Below, piece by piece: positions 1,818 through 7,443 of a DNA stretch of 64,000 nt (the stretch's first letter is position 1; each line of letters starts with the position of its first letter). The stretch is from assembly GCF_035918235.1 (NCBI RefSeq), contig NZ_CP109485.1, positions 9,145,001 to 9,209,000 on the forward strand, written 5' to 3'. A model generated the notes under the pieces. That model did not search any database. It was not told the DNA's origin and worked only from the letters and a program-made list of their open reading frames with translations. This stretch comes from Streptomyces sp. NBC_01445. GTDB taxonomy: Bacteria > Actinomycetota > Actinomycetes > Streptomycetales > Streptomycetaceae. A program made the translations under genes and the position numbers.

Positions 1818-1858
1818 GCCCGCCGGAAAATGACGAGCGGAGGCGGCCGGGGCCCTGT

Positions 1859-1864
1859 TACGGT
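1859..1864 (+). promoter_or_regulatory. -10 box of a leaderless promoter for the Thr leader peptide
   Basis: TACGGT fits the TAnnnT form of actinobacterial -10 boxes. It ends 6 bases before ATG 1871, so the transcript would begin at or next to the leader-peptide start codon. No good -35 box is visible at 17-18 bases. This is an inference from spacing alone. Confidence 0.45.
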
Positions 1865-1870
1865 CCGGCC

Positions 1871-1927
1871 ATGAAGCGATGCGCAGCTGCCATGACGACG
1901 ACGCCGGAGAGTGTCCCGGCGCGCTGA
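1871..1927 (+). CDS. Threonine-rich regulatory leader peptide upstream of ThrRS
   Basis: An 18-codon open reading frame reads MKRCAAAMTTTPESVPAR and stops at TGA 1925-1927. Three consecutive ACG threonine codons occupy 1895-1903. It lies 86 bases before a threonyl-tRNA synthetase start codon and 15 bases before a 12-bp hairpin. In ribosome-mediated attenuation, a ribosome stalled at codons for the scarce amino acid stops the downstream terminator from forming. Match of codon identity to the downstream enzyme, small size and position all fit that model. The peptide itself probably has no function. I cannot show translation or regulation from sequence. Confidence 0.72.
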   Translation: MKRCAAAMTTTPESVPAR

Positions 1928-1942
1928 CAGCTGTCTCAGTCC

Positions 1943-1972
1943 GAAGCCCCGGGGCGAGTGCCCCGGGGCTTC
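1943..1972 (+). terminator. Attenuator hairpin before ThrRS
   Basis: GAAGCCCCGGGG and CCCCGGGGCTTC form a perfect 12-bp stem around a 6-base loop. There is no U-run after it, as in many Streptomyces terminators. It begins 15 bases after the leader-peptide stop. The upstream segment TCCCGG (1914-1919) could pair with CCGGGG inside the stem as a competing structure. That makes it a plausible conditional terminator, but an ordinary terminator of the preceding gene cannot be excluded. Confidence 0.65.
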
Positions 1973-2013
1973 GCCGTGGGACCACTCGCCCGACGACCGC
2001 GAGGGATCCCACC

Positions 2014-3324
2014 GTGAACCAGCAGAAGCAGGACCAGCAGAAGTACGAGCAGCGCAGTCAGGAACACCCGCAGCGCGAGCGCCCCGAGCACGAGAGTCCG
2101 AAGCACGACCACCGCAAGCTCGGCCGTGAGCTCGGCCTCTTCGGCACCGACCCGCTGATCGGCGCGGGACTGCCCTACTGGCTGCCCGACGGCGCGGCCG
2201 TACGGCACACCCTCGAGGAGTACATCCGCACCGCCGAGCGGCGGGCCGGCTACCGGCACGTGTACTCGCCGGTCCTCGGCAAGCGGGAGCTGTACGAGAT
2301 CTCGGGGCACTGGTCGCACTACAGCGACGACATGTTTCCCCCGATGGACCTGGGCGGCGAGCAGGTCGTCCTGCGGCCCAGCCTCTGTCCCCACCACGCC
2401 GTCATCTACCGTTCCCGCTCCCACAGCTACCGCGAACTCCCGCTGCGTATGGCGGAGTTGGGCGGCATGTACCGCTCCGAGCTGTCGGGCGTGCTCGGCG
2501 GTCTGACCCGCGTACGGGCCATCCAGCTCAACGACGCGCACATCTTCTGCACCCTCGCCCAGGTGGCCGACGAGGCGCGGGCGGCCCTGGAGATGATCCG
2601 CAGGGCCTACGAGGCGCTCGGCATCAACCCCGCGCGCTACCGGCTCTCTCTGCCGGGCCCGGGCGGCAAGTACGTCTCCGCCCCCGGGATGTGGCAGCGC
2701 TCGACCGCACTGCTCACCGATGTCCTCGACCGCTCGGGCCTTCCCTACGAGGCGGCCGAGGGAGAGGCAGCGTTCTACGGGCCCAAGATCGACGTCCAGG
2801 TCGCCGACGGCGCGGGACGCGAGTCCACCCTCTCCACCGTCCAGGTCGACTTCCACCAGCCCGAGCGTTTCGACCTGCACTACATCGGTCCGGACGGCGC
2901 GAAGCACCGGCCGGTGATGGTCCACCGCAGCATCATCGGCAGCGTGGAGCGGGTCGTCGCGCACCTCATCGAGCAGCAGGGCGGCGCCTTCCCGGCGTGG
3001 CTCGCGCCCACCCAGGTGGCGATCCTGCCGATCTCGGACGCAGAGCTTCCGCACGCCGATGCCCTCGCGCGGCGGTGCGCCGAGCTGGGGCTGCGGGCGG
3101 AGGTCGCGGGCCCGGACCGCGGCACCCTGGGCGCCCGTGTCCGGGAGGCCAGGCTCGTGCCGTACCAGGCGGTCATCGGCGGGAGGGAGGCGGCGGACGG
3201 TCGGGTCGCGCTGCGCCTGCGTGACGGCCGTCGCCCCGCCCCGCTGCCCGCCGAGGAGGTGCTTGCCAGGGTCGGGGCAGTCGTCGACGCGTACGGGCAC
3301 GACCTGTGGGACGAGGCGAGCTGA
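2014..3324 (+). CDS. Short threonyl-tRNA synthetase lacking TGS and editing domains
   Basis: A 436-residue class II synthetase that should charge tRNA-Thr with threonine. Only the catalytic core and C-terminal anticodon-binding domain are present; the N-terminal TGS and editing domains (over 200 residues) of standard bacterial ThrRS are absent. Zn/substrate ligands are conserved: Cys125 in LCPHH, His176 in NDAHIFC and His304 in MVHRS. The spacing between Cys125 and His176 matches E. coli Cys334-His385. Flanking residues differ from the E. coli motif as I recall it (Met-Asn before Cys is Ser-Leu here, and Pro-Gly-His is Pro-His-His). GTG 2014 is chosen for the GAGGGA site 7 bases upstream. The first 35 residues are a Gln/Glu/Lys/His-rich low-complexity extension. 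It is probably a second, inducible or drug-tolerant ThrRS beside a housekeeping copy elsewhere. Confidence 0.85.
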   Translation: MNQQKQDQQKYEQRSQEHPQRERPEHESPKHDHRKLGRELGLFGTDPLIGAGLPYWLPDGAAVRHTLEEYIRTAERRAGYRHVYSPVLGKRELYEISGHWSHYSDDMFPPMDLGGEQVVLRPSLCPHHAVIYRSRSHSYRELPLRMAELGGMYRSELSGVLGGLTRVRAIQLNDAHIFCTLAQVADEARAALEMIRRAYEALGINPARYRLSLPGPGGKYVSAPGMWQRSTALLTDVLDRSGLPYEAAEGEAAFYGPKIDVQVADGAGRESTLSTVQVDFHQPERFDLHYIGPDGAKHRPVMVHRSIIGSVERVVAHLIEQQGGAFPAWLAPTQVAILPISDAELPHADALARRCAELGLRAEVAGPDRGTLGARVREARLVPYQAVIGGREAADGRVALRLRDGRRPAPLPAEEVLARVGAVVDAYGHDLWDEAS

Positions 3325-3349: not shown

Positions 3350-4645
<1,296 letters not shown>

Positions 4646-4706
4646 CGTCGACCGCACTCCCGAGCCCTGAGGGCCGACCATCCACCCACACTGGCATAAC
4701 GGGCAA

Positions 4707-4728
4707 ATCGGTCGACCGATCATTCGGT
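4707..4728. promoter_or_regulatory. Overlapping palindromes upstream of paaK (probable operator)
   Basis: ATCGGTCGACCGAT (4707-4720) is a perfect 14-base palindrome. ACCGATCATTCGGT (4715-4728) is a second inverted repeat (ACCGA, 4 bases, TCGGT) that shares its left arm. ACCG/CGGT half-sites are common in actinobacterial TetR operators. They lie about 60 bases upstream of the paaK start. The cognate repressor is not in the window. Confidence 0.5.
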
Positions 4729-5743: not shown

Positions 5744-7357
5744 CTACGCCCCGCCCGCTACTGCCCGCGCCCACCGGTAGTCCGCCTTGCCGCTGGGTGA
5801 GCGCTGGATGCGGTCGGTCAGGACCAGCTGGCGGGGGATCTTGTAGCCCGCGAGGCGGGTGCGGCAGTGGGTCTGGATGTCGTCGAGCGAGGGCGGTTCC
5901 GCGCCGTCGCGCAGTTGGACCACCGCGGCGACGTGATTGCCCCACTTGGCGTCGGGCACCCCGGCCACCAGCGCGTCGTACACGTCGGGGTGGGACTTCA
6001 GGGCCTGCTCGACCTCTTCCGGATACACTTTCTCGCCGCCCGTGTTGATGCACTGCGAGCCGCGTCCGAGGACCGTGACGATGCCGTCCTCGTCGACCGT
6101 CGCCATGTCCCCGAGCAGCACCCACCGCTCGTCGCCCTTCTGGAAGAACGTCTCGGCCGTTTTCGCGGGGTCGTTGTAGTAGCCGAGCGGGACGTGCCCG
6201 CGCTGGGCGATGCGGCCCGGCTCTCCGGGGTCGACCGGCTCGTAGGTCGCCGGATCGACCACCTGCGTACGGGAGTTGACCCGCAGGCGGAAGCCCTTCT
6301 CCGGGCCGGAGTCGTCCGTCGCCGTGCCGTTGAAGCCGGACTCGGACGAGCCGAAGTTGTTCAGGAGCATCACGTTCGGGACGAGCGCCTGGAACTGCGC
6401 GCGCACCGTCTCCGACATGATCGCGCCCGACGACGAGACGCTGAACATCGACGAGCAGTCGGTGCCCTTCATCGGCCCGTTCAGCGCGTCGATCAGGGGC
6501 CGCAGCATCGCGTCCCCGACGAGCGACATGCTCGTCACCTTCTCCTTCTCGACCGTACGCAGCACTTCTTCGGGCACGAACTTCGTGTGGATGACGAGGC
6601 GTTGGCCGAAGTTGAAGCCGATGAAGGCGGTGAGCGTGGACGTGCCGTGCATCAGGGGAGGCGTCGGGAAGAAGGTGATCCCGTCACCGCCTGCCGCCAC
6701 GCGTTCGGCCAGCTCCTCCGGCCTGCTGACCGGGTCGCCCGTCGGTGCGCCGCCGCCGAGCCCTGAGAAGAACAGGTCCTCCTGGCGCCACATCACGCCC
6801 TTGGGCATGCCGGTCGTGCCGCCCGTGTAGATGATGAAGAGGTCGTCGGCCGAGCGCGGCCCGAAGCCGCGCTCCGGCGAGCCCGTGGCCTCCGCCTCCG
6901 TGAAGTCCACGGCCTTGACGGGCGGCGCGCCGGTCGGCGGGGTTCCGACGCGCACGAGGTGGCGCAGCTTCTCCGTCTGCGGCTGAGCGGCCGCGACGCG
7001 TTCGGTGAACTCGGCGTCGAAGACGAGCGCCGCGAGGTCCGCGTCACGGTAGAGGTAGACCAACTCCTCCTCTACGTAACGGTAGTTGACGTTGACGGGC
7101 ACGATCCGCGCCTTGAGGCAGGCGAGCACCGTCTGGAGATACTCGATGCCGTTGTAGAGGTGCAGGCCCAGATGTTCGCCGGGGCGGATCCCGCTGTCGA
7201 TCAGATGGTGCGCGAGGCGGTTGGCCGCCGCGTCGAGTCCGGCGTACGTGAGCCGGCGCTCCGCGCCCGTGCCGGGATGGTCGATGTGCACGAGCGCCTC
7301 GCGGTCGGGGACCACGTCGACGACCGACTCGAACAGGTCGGCAAGGTTGTACTCCAC
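5744..7357 (-). CDS. Long-chain/steroid-type acyl-CoA synthetase (FadD19-like)
   Basis: A 537-residue ANL-superfamily acyl-CoA ligase. The P-loop is IIYTGGTTGMPKGVMWRQED, a variant typical from memory of mycobacterial and rhodococcal FadD enzymes acting on steroid side chains and branched acids. NNFGSSESGF, VLGRGSQCINTGGEKVYPEEVE and the catalytic lysine in RSPSGKADYRW are intact. I choose GTG 7357 because AGGAGG lies 4 bases upstream; an ATG at 7381 is possible. It is transcribed away from a crotonase/DUF35/thiolase operon, with a shared 196-base control region holding a palindrome. It probably supplies the CoA ester that the operon degrades. Confidence 0.88.
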   Translation of the reverse strand: MEYNLADLFESVVDVVPDREALVHIDHPGTGAERRLTYAGLDAAANRLAHHLIDSGIRPGEHLGLHLYNGIEYLQTVLACLKARIVPVNVNYRYVEEELVYLYRDADLAALVFDAEFTERVAAAQPQTEKLRHLVRVGTPPTGAPPVKAVDFTEAEATGSPERGFGPRSADDLFIIYTGGTTGMPKGVMWRQEDLFFSGLGGGAPTGDPVSRPEELAERVAAGGDGITFFPTPPLMHGTSTLTAFIGFNFGQRLVIHTKFVPEEVLRTVEKEKVTSMSLVGDAMLRPLIDALNGPMKGTDCSSMFSVSSSGAIMSETVRAQFQALVPNVMLLNNFGSSESGFNGTATDDSGPEKGFRLRVNSRTQVVDPATYEPVDPGEPGRIAQRGHVPLGYYNDPAKTAETFFQKGDERWVLLGDMATVDEDGIVTVLGRGSQCINTGGEKVYPEEVEQALKSHPDVYDALVAGVPDAKWGNHVAAVVQLRDGAEPPSLDDIQTHCRTRLAGYKIPRQLVLTDRIQRSPSGKADYRWARAVAGGA

Positions 7358-7443
7358 CGCTCCTCCTGACCCAGGCGCCATCTCGATGTGGCCGTCATCT
7401 CAGCAGAGCCGCATGGAACAGGGAAGGGCCCCCGCACAAGAAA

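Follow-up and report, generated by a model that had tools for sequence, protein, structure and literature searches.

A threonine-codon leader and a covarying hairpin before the second threonyl-tRNA synthetase gene of a Streptomyces: a probable leaderless attenuator

The auxiliary threonyl-tRNA synthetase (ThrRS) gene thrS2 of Streptomyces sp. NBC_01445 is very probably controlled by ribosome-mediated transcription attenuation through a leaderless leader peptide. The gene lies in the window, by which we mean the whole stretch of 64,000 nt that was analysed (NZ_CP109485.1, positions 9,145,001 to 9,209,000). Its leader, the codons of the leader, the promoter spacing and the terminator stem were each recognised from the sequence and from comparison with relatives. 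Judged by these features, the window element is a further member of the thrL-type attenuator described in Streptomyces lividans. The features are listed below in window coordinates.

1826-1831, plus strand: GAAAAT, candidate WblC/WhiB7 box (GAAAWY), starting 33 nt before the -10 hexamer
1856-1864, plus strand: extended -10, TGT plus TACGGT (TACGGT at 1859-1864, 6 nt before the leader ATG)
1871-1927, plus strand: leader peptide ORF MKRCAAAMTTTPESVPAR*, 18 codons plus TGA, predicted to be leaderless
1895-1903, plus strand: three ACG (Thr) codons, predicted stall site; ACG ACG ACG in 136/139 loci
1899-1923, plus strand: hairpin 1:2, CG 1899-1900 and CGCCGG 1902-1907 with CCGGCG 1916-1921 and CG 1922-1923
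1913-1925, plus strand: predicted antiterminator strand 2, GUCCCGG.G.GCU, complementary to 1945-1955
1942-1973, plus strand: terminator-like hairpin 3:4, 14 perfect bp (1942-1955 with 1960-1973), loop GAGU
2001-2006, plus strand: SD-like GAGGGA of thrS2, 7 nt before the GTG
2014-3324, plus strand: thrS2, short threonyl-tRNA synthetase of 436 aa, GTG start (TIGR00418, PF00587, PF03129)

The 18-codon reading frame with three adjacent ACG codons, the TACGGT box six bases before its ATG and a ThrRS gene behind a hairpin had been named in the original prediction, and all are present; the product of the gene scores 447.5 bits against TIGR00418 (cut-off 383.65). The hairpin, predicted as a perfect 12-bp stem, is indeed perfectly paired, but it is 14 bp long and has no U-tract. 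It starts 14 nt past the leader stop codon.

We propose that RNA polymerase would begin its transcript on the leader ATG or about one base away, and that a ribosome would load at the RNA 5' end and trail the polymerase closely. With Thr-tRNA plentiful, the ribosome would clear ACG ACG ACG and halt on the UGA where strand 2 ends, so that this strand is masked; the 14-bp hairpin would then form and transcription would end before thrS2. When charged tRNA-Thr is short, the ribosome would wait with ACG in its A site and open hairpin 1:2, and the freed strand 2 would base-pair to the terminator's 5' arm, letting the polymerase read into the auxiliary ThrRS gene. The attenuation reading of the original prediction is supported by the comparisons below; the stalling of the ribosome and its response to threonyl-tRNA are what we infer from the arrangement of codons and strands.

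A Thr-Thr-Thr leader (TTTP) was found upstream of thrS2 in all 79 evaluable loci among the best 80 of 585 relatives (at the remaining locus, L061, the contig begins 93 nt before the match). The genera include Streptomyces, Streptosporangium, Microbispora, Kitasatospora, Nocardiopsis, Amycolatopsis and Saccharopolyspora. In a survey of the class, thrS2 was detected at E <= 1e-125 in 62 of 394 genomes, and the leader was present in 59 of 60 upstream regions, a set that left out the own genome and G297, where thrS2 starts at a contig end; the exception, L134 (209 nt), reaches the contig edge. The leader is retained down to 52% ThrRS2 identity (L143). In both sets, therefore, the comparison of orthologues, which had been set beforehand as the refuting test, showed the Thr codons to be kept within a predicted translated leader whose codon run is cognate to the enzyme, as expected of an attenuator. 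The counts over 139 loci that follow combine the 80 and the 59 (134 distinct over 110 nt), and they refer to loci, not independent events: some species occur in both sets, and relatedness makes the sequences non-independent.

A covariance model (R1) was built from an alignment that includes survey sequences, so that many of its survey matches are there by construction. Across the 394 class genomes it gave 58 matches at E < 1e-8, 57 within genomes on the thrS2 list and the other in G239. At this threshold 5 of the 62 thrS2 genomes had no match, namely G157 and G297, where contigs end, and the divergent G201, G205 and G214. Weak R1 matches (E <= 0.01) occurred in at least 127 of 394 genomes, most without explanation, and are taken as chance. 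Within one GTDB family (150 genomes), R1 matched at E <= 1e-5 in 57 genomes and thrS2 was found at E <= 1e-115 in 49, with the R1 match adjoining thrS2 in 49/49. Of the eight remaining genomes with an R1 match, G708, G720 and G756 contain a thrS2 start or fragment, G774 has its R1 match at a contig end and gave no thrS2 match, and G771, G382, G733 and G764 are taken up below. As far as sequence comparison reaches, this distribution shows the attenuator to be an old and widely shared device.

Some single loci depart from this arrangement. At L232 (G771:C1, about 3034896) a decayed thrS2 start follows a decayed leader with the Thr run ACA ACG ATG, and thrS2 and its attenuator seem to decay together in G771. 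At L185 (G239:C18:107-196, minus strand) an intact leader and terminator lie 107 nt from the contig end and precede a start unlike thrS2 (MTVSSRLRGW...); G239 has no thrS2 match.

Within the leader, the Thr run is nearly fixed. The 3/139 loci that deviate from ACG ACG ACG do so in the first codon only (ACC in two, ACT in one), and codons 2 and 3 show synonymous changes in 0/139. The absence of ACC at these two codons can be explained by their place in stem 1:2; a preference for an ACG-reading tRNA is another possible cause. Downstream of the run comes CCGG, followed by an 8-nt loop (133/139) and by CCGGCG or CCGGUG (139/139), while the encoded tail ends exactly in VPAR in 125/139 leaders and is similar and in frame in 133/139. 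Two loop codons (Glu-Ser) vary in the encoded amino acid among the 80 loci. Six leaders (L044, L120, L124, L141, L142 and L143) have a loop of 6, 7 or 10 nt, so that the frame is shifted and the peptide tail is gone; both halves of the stem core, CGCCGG and CCGGCG, are intact in 6/6. Because these tail-less loci retain the stem core, selection is, on this comparison, acting on the leader RNA and the Thr run rather than on the tail peptide. The window has two TANNNT-headed mini-ORFs on both strands together, each with a triple residue, and the leader ORF alone is followed by a stem of 11 bp or more. In ten windows shuffled by a Markov model there were 85 mini-ORFs; a triple residue occurred in 21 of them, and a stem of this length in none.

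Structure was counted on an alignment of 85 sequences (84 distinct), made up of 26 diverse members of the first 80 loci and the 59 survey loci. Stem 3:4 was paired in 91.5% of cells, versus 29-68% when slid, and 7 of its 14 pairs have changed on both sides, with 27 such cells versus 6.5 +/- 2.3 in shuffles. By this count the terminator stem is covarying, and the hairpin, like the codons, came through the orthologue comparison that the original prediction had called for. Leader and hairpin together (1871-1985) fold with z = -4.3, and 0/200 shuffles fold as well; the leader region minus the 3' arm of the hairpin folds unremarkably (z = 0.4). What lies between leader and gene is thus a 14-bp covarying stem, as expected of an attenuator, but one without a U-tract: a scan of 1700-2100 for U-tract terminators found none, and near the stem end the loci have at most 5 T per 8-nt window, with at least 4 T in only 33/139. 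Hairpin 3:4 would be the site of transcription termination. At gathering thresholds, Rfam gave no match anywhere in the window, T-box included. A T-box riboswitch was considered separately and rejected, as none of six weak Rfam matches in 1700-2100 is a T-box.

Hairpin 1:2, which partly overlaps Thr codons 2 and 3, was paired in 99.4% of cells (28-79% when slid) and is so nearly invariant that it carries no covariation information. In a fold model of the window RNA, hairpins 1:2, 2:3 and 3:4 could each form. The model, which rests on assumed footprint lengths for the ribosome, predicts hairpin 1:2 when no ribosome is present and the terminator when a ribosome sits at the stop codon. With the A site at Thr codon 1 or 2 and the 5' arm already transcribed, the modelled 2:3 pairing has -21.1 kcal/mol, and it weakens to -13.4 kcal/mol with the A site at Thr codon 3; after the whole terminator has been transcribed, the terminator is favoured whatever the ribosome position. 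The scheme follows the classical attenuator layout. Antiterminator 2:3 was paired in 95.3% of cells and shows no covariation. At least 7 cross pairs can form in 137/139 real sequences versus 479/695 versions with shuffled strand 2, and the mean energy is -20.2 kcal/mol for real sequences versus -15.3 when strand 2 is shuffled (about 5 kcal/mol weaker). Exchanging strands between the two types of ThrRS gene that carry such leaders did not weaken the pairing. Neither control sets 2:3 apart from the complementarity of GC-rich sequence. We infer the antiterminator from complementarity alone.

The promoter has a similarly constant layout. TANNNT, searched at 4-9 nt before the start in the window and 79 further loci, precedes the leader start by 6 nt (5/80) or 7 nt (75/80). 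Among survey leaders the spacing is 7 nt in 45/59 and 6 nt in 14/59, where the presence in 59/59 is built in, since the survey scan itself demanded TANNNT 5-8 nt before the start. G stands at -2 in 131/139 promoters, and a scan of 1700-2100 for canonical sigma-70 promoters gave no match. The leaderless start that had been predicted from this spacing is backed by the S. lividans orthologue, which the available text of PMC8079986 reports as leaderless from RNA-seq.

The main other conserved upstream feature of the 139 promoters is an A-rich block at about -30 from the -10 hexamer. GAAA starts at -35 to -31 from the hexamer in 83/139 promoters, with 11 occurrences at the other 65 positions; strict GAAAWY occupies this band in 42/139 and occurs nowhere else, and GAAA is missing from the band in 56/139. 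The WblC consensus is given as GAAAWY, 3 nt upstream of -35 (PMC7157823, Fig. 8 legend), and the window has such a box at the fixed spacing upstream of -35. The same source names S. coelicolor thrS2 among WblC-activated genes (PMC7157823), and from its name this gene would be the orthologue of the window gene. The window promoter therefore resembles the WblC/WhiB7 regulon both in the gene that is activated and in the place of its box; the regulon differs from the attenuator in being promoter-level activation, and the parts of PMC7157823 available to us make no mention of a thrS2 attenuator. WblC may thus control the thrS2 promoter of the window, and the box points to a possible second gate, acting at the promoter, that would answer translation stress.

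The closest described relative is thrL (SLIV_19412, MKRVRPFLETTPGFVPAR) of S. lividans TK24, located upstream of thrS SLIV_19410 and reported from RNA-seq in 2021 as a leaderless attenuator of thrS (PMC8079986). The original prediction knew of no described attenuator for this class of ThrRS, a statement that thrL overturns. According to the available text, thrL is like the window leader in being leaderless, in its 18 codons, MKR start and VPAR end, in its place before a ThrRS gene and in its single hairpin without a U-tract, for which reason its authors call termination unclear (PMC8079986). The window element likewise has a VPAR-ending Thr leader directly upstream of a ThrRS gene and one hairpin without a U-run, its leaderless start being predicted from promoter spacing. 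The two differ in that thrL has two Thr codons, not three (GAG ACG ACG in L182 and L183). A search for the thrL peptide in 295 genomes of the genus gave a partial match in 2, both of which encode the whole peptide; at L182 and L183 the exact peptide stands before thrS2, with the same RNA core. Unlike the present analysis, the description of thrL in the available text carries no alignment, antiterminator or distribution (PMC8079986). Our literature search on ThrRS attenuation in Actinobacteria, which covered few subscription papers, found it reported only in PMC8079986. Within that same search we found no description of the breadth, the RNA-level constraint, the WblC-like promoter or the either-or placement set out below.

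Ribosome-mediated transcription attenuation of the auxiliary TrpRS1 gene of Streptomyces was reportedly described by Vecchione and Sello in 2010. It would be the nearest functional parallel to thrS2, in that a spare aminoacyl-tRNA synthetase is under attenuation, and it differs in the amino acid and in the gene. TrpRS1 of Streptomyces is described as indolmycin-resistant (PMC9437257, in the text available). Classical attenuators are reported for the trp operons and leuS of Actinobacteria (PMC1262725); they resemble the thrS2 leader in codons that match the regulated gene and in alternative hairpins, but their terminators carry poly-U tracts, which the thrS2 hairpin does not. The accessible portion of this 2005 survey of Actinobacteria gives no conserved structure for threonine operons, and it notes that mutating the candidate regulatory codons of S. 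coelicolor ilvB had no effect (PMC1262725), so look-alike leaders in the genus can mislead.

A similar attenuator also stands before the canonical gene. In G382, G733 and G764 an R1 element lies upstream of a canonical full-length ThrRS, and no thrS2 was found in these genomes. Scanning 70 canonical loci of the family for leaders headed by TANNNT, we found a TTTPG leader followed by a terminator-like GC-rich hairpin before canonical thrS in 10:

L246, L248, L263, L264 (= L184), L277, L278, L283: canonical thrS with leader
L294, L303 (= L235), L304 (= L234): canonical thrS with leader, continued

The 70 loci comprise 68 from an even draw (70 rows minus G691 and G703) plus G733 and G764, which were added for their R1 matches. 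In the even draw the frequency is 8/68, or 7/67 without the seed G382, and 8/68 is a lower bound since a simple scan misses leaders of other form. Gene starts were located before the scan except at L303 (positive) and L301 (negative), which are short pieces without a gene start. Among genomes with a thrS2 attenuator, the canonical thrS had a leader in 0/24 draw loci, and a search for thrS2 in the ten canonical-leader genomes found none, the best match being the canonical ThrRS (E 1e-97 to 3e-108, 41-45% identity). Across the class, own genome included, a leader preceded canonical thrS in 0/26 loci (27 loci, of which L158 lacks upstream sequence). The middle Thr codon is ACC in the canonical leaders L246, L283 and L294. 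Because the leaders share the core ACG-ACS-ACG-CCGGG...CCCGG, common descent of canonical thrS and thrS2 leaders is likely. The pattern in the family is that the attenuator sits either on canonical thrS or on thrS2 (ten genomes, all without a thrS2 found).

A wider proposal is more tentative, and we hold it to be possible rather than probable: a class-wide actinobacterial RNA family in which a ribosome at the 5' end senses Thr-tRNA, placed on the gene of a sole housekeeping ThrRS or of an auxiliary one and never on both, and stacked on a WblC/WhiB7 promoter where the gene is auxiliary. If this is true, thrS2 would require translation stress and uncharged tRNA-Thr together as its signals, and its product would be a reserve enzyme, purpose-built for conditions in which something such as a natural inhibitor blocks the main ThrRS. 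The idea of a reserve enzyme can be tested because the attenuator sits on one or the other of two ThrRS genes. Through the analysis, what was a single entry in a reannotation paper becomes an RNA family that is defined and searchable, whose terminator covaries and which includes naturally occurring frameshift variants. The family would also connect amino-acid-specific attenuation with spare synthetases that are induced by stress, and it would offer a clean case of a sensing ribosome at the extreme 5' end of a leaderless RNA.

Other readings of the element need to be weighed against attenuation by a threonine-sensing leader. The leader could be a general sensor of translation stress like the wblC uORF, in which the switch would respond to any slow ribosome, for example under a sub-lethal dose of a ribosome-targeting antibiotic, with the Thr codons merely fixing the place of the stall. 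This would be consistent with WblC activation of S. coelicolor thrS2, with wblC itself being under a uORF attenuator (PMC7157823, as far as its available text goes) and with a GAAA box fixed in 83/139 promoters. We nonetheless consider it unlikely, as codon identity fits the enzyme in every leader found and as the leaders of canonical type, which belong to another family, also retain a Thr run ahead of a ThrRS gene. Control after initiation might also proceed without intrinsic termination, through Rho acting on the RNA that is bare beyond the leader stop codon or through an effect of the hairpin on mRNA stability or thrS2 translation. The missing U-tract, for which the S. lividans authors likewise call thrL termination unclear (PMC8079986, available text), speaks for it; the hairpin, however, is conserved and covarying, and 27 nt separate its end from the SD-like sequence, which it leaves uncovered, and this makes such control quite improbable.

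That the peptide TTTPESVPAR itself stalls the ribosome as an arrest peptide would account for the exact VPAR end in 125/139 leaders and the similar in-frame tail in 133/139, but 6/139 have lost the tail through changes in loop length with the RNA stem core kept, the S. lividans thrL has two Thr codons and an altered tail, and the Glu-Ser codons vary. An arrest peptide is therefore highly improbable. It is hardly credible that the hairpin merely terminates the upstream acyl-CoA ligase gene and that the short ORF is a GC-rich accident; a same-strand gene does end at 1817, yet the unit of leader, hairpin and thrS2 is kept in all evaluable loci of many genera, and the arrangement occurs once in the window and in none of 10 shuffled windows. 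Attenuation by the leaderless threonine leader is thus the reading that we retain.

With regard to the enzyme, ThrRS2 consists of the catalytic and anticodon-binding domains only. The other ThrRS of the genome (G000:C1:8036516) is canonical and full-length and is 43% identical to ThrRS2. Among PDB entries, ThrRS2 scores higher with S. aureus ThrRS (388 bits) than with E. coli ThrRS (278 bits), and a separate search gave 349.5 bits with the genome's canonical ThrRS. That the S. aureus score exceeds both of the others hints at a separate origin of ThrRS2.

Mutations that confer borrelidin resistance map at human L567 / E. coli L489 (PMC4389257, available text). The corresponding residue of ThrRS2 is Q in 105/105 readable sequences (104 HQ, 1 YQ), with 4/109 thrS2 loci unreadable; which residues correspond was judged by visual inspection of the alignment. 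Among 19 readable canonical sequences from the class, 4 have Q, 13 L and 2 M (8/27 unreadable). Human M411, Q566 and L567 are described as borrelidin contacts in the same portion of PMC4389257. At the equivalent positions, which lie within the motifs DFHQP and RPSLCP, no fewer than 104/105 readable ThrRS2 have S, H and Q. ThrRS2 as a borrelidin-resistant isozyme is a weak candidate and a lead only, given that Q also occurs in 4/19 canonical ThrRS. Around thrS2 lie genes for AMP-forming acyl-CoA ligases, at 171-1817 (PRK08316-like), 3350-4723 (PaaK-like) and 5744-7381 (PRK07798-like).
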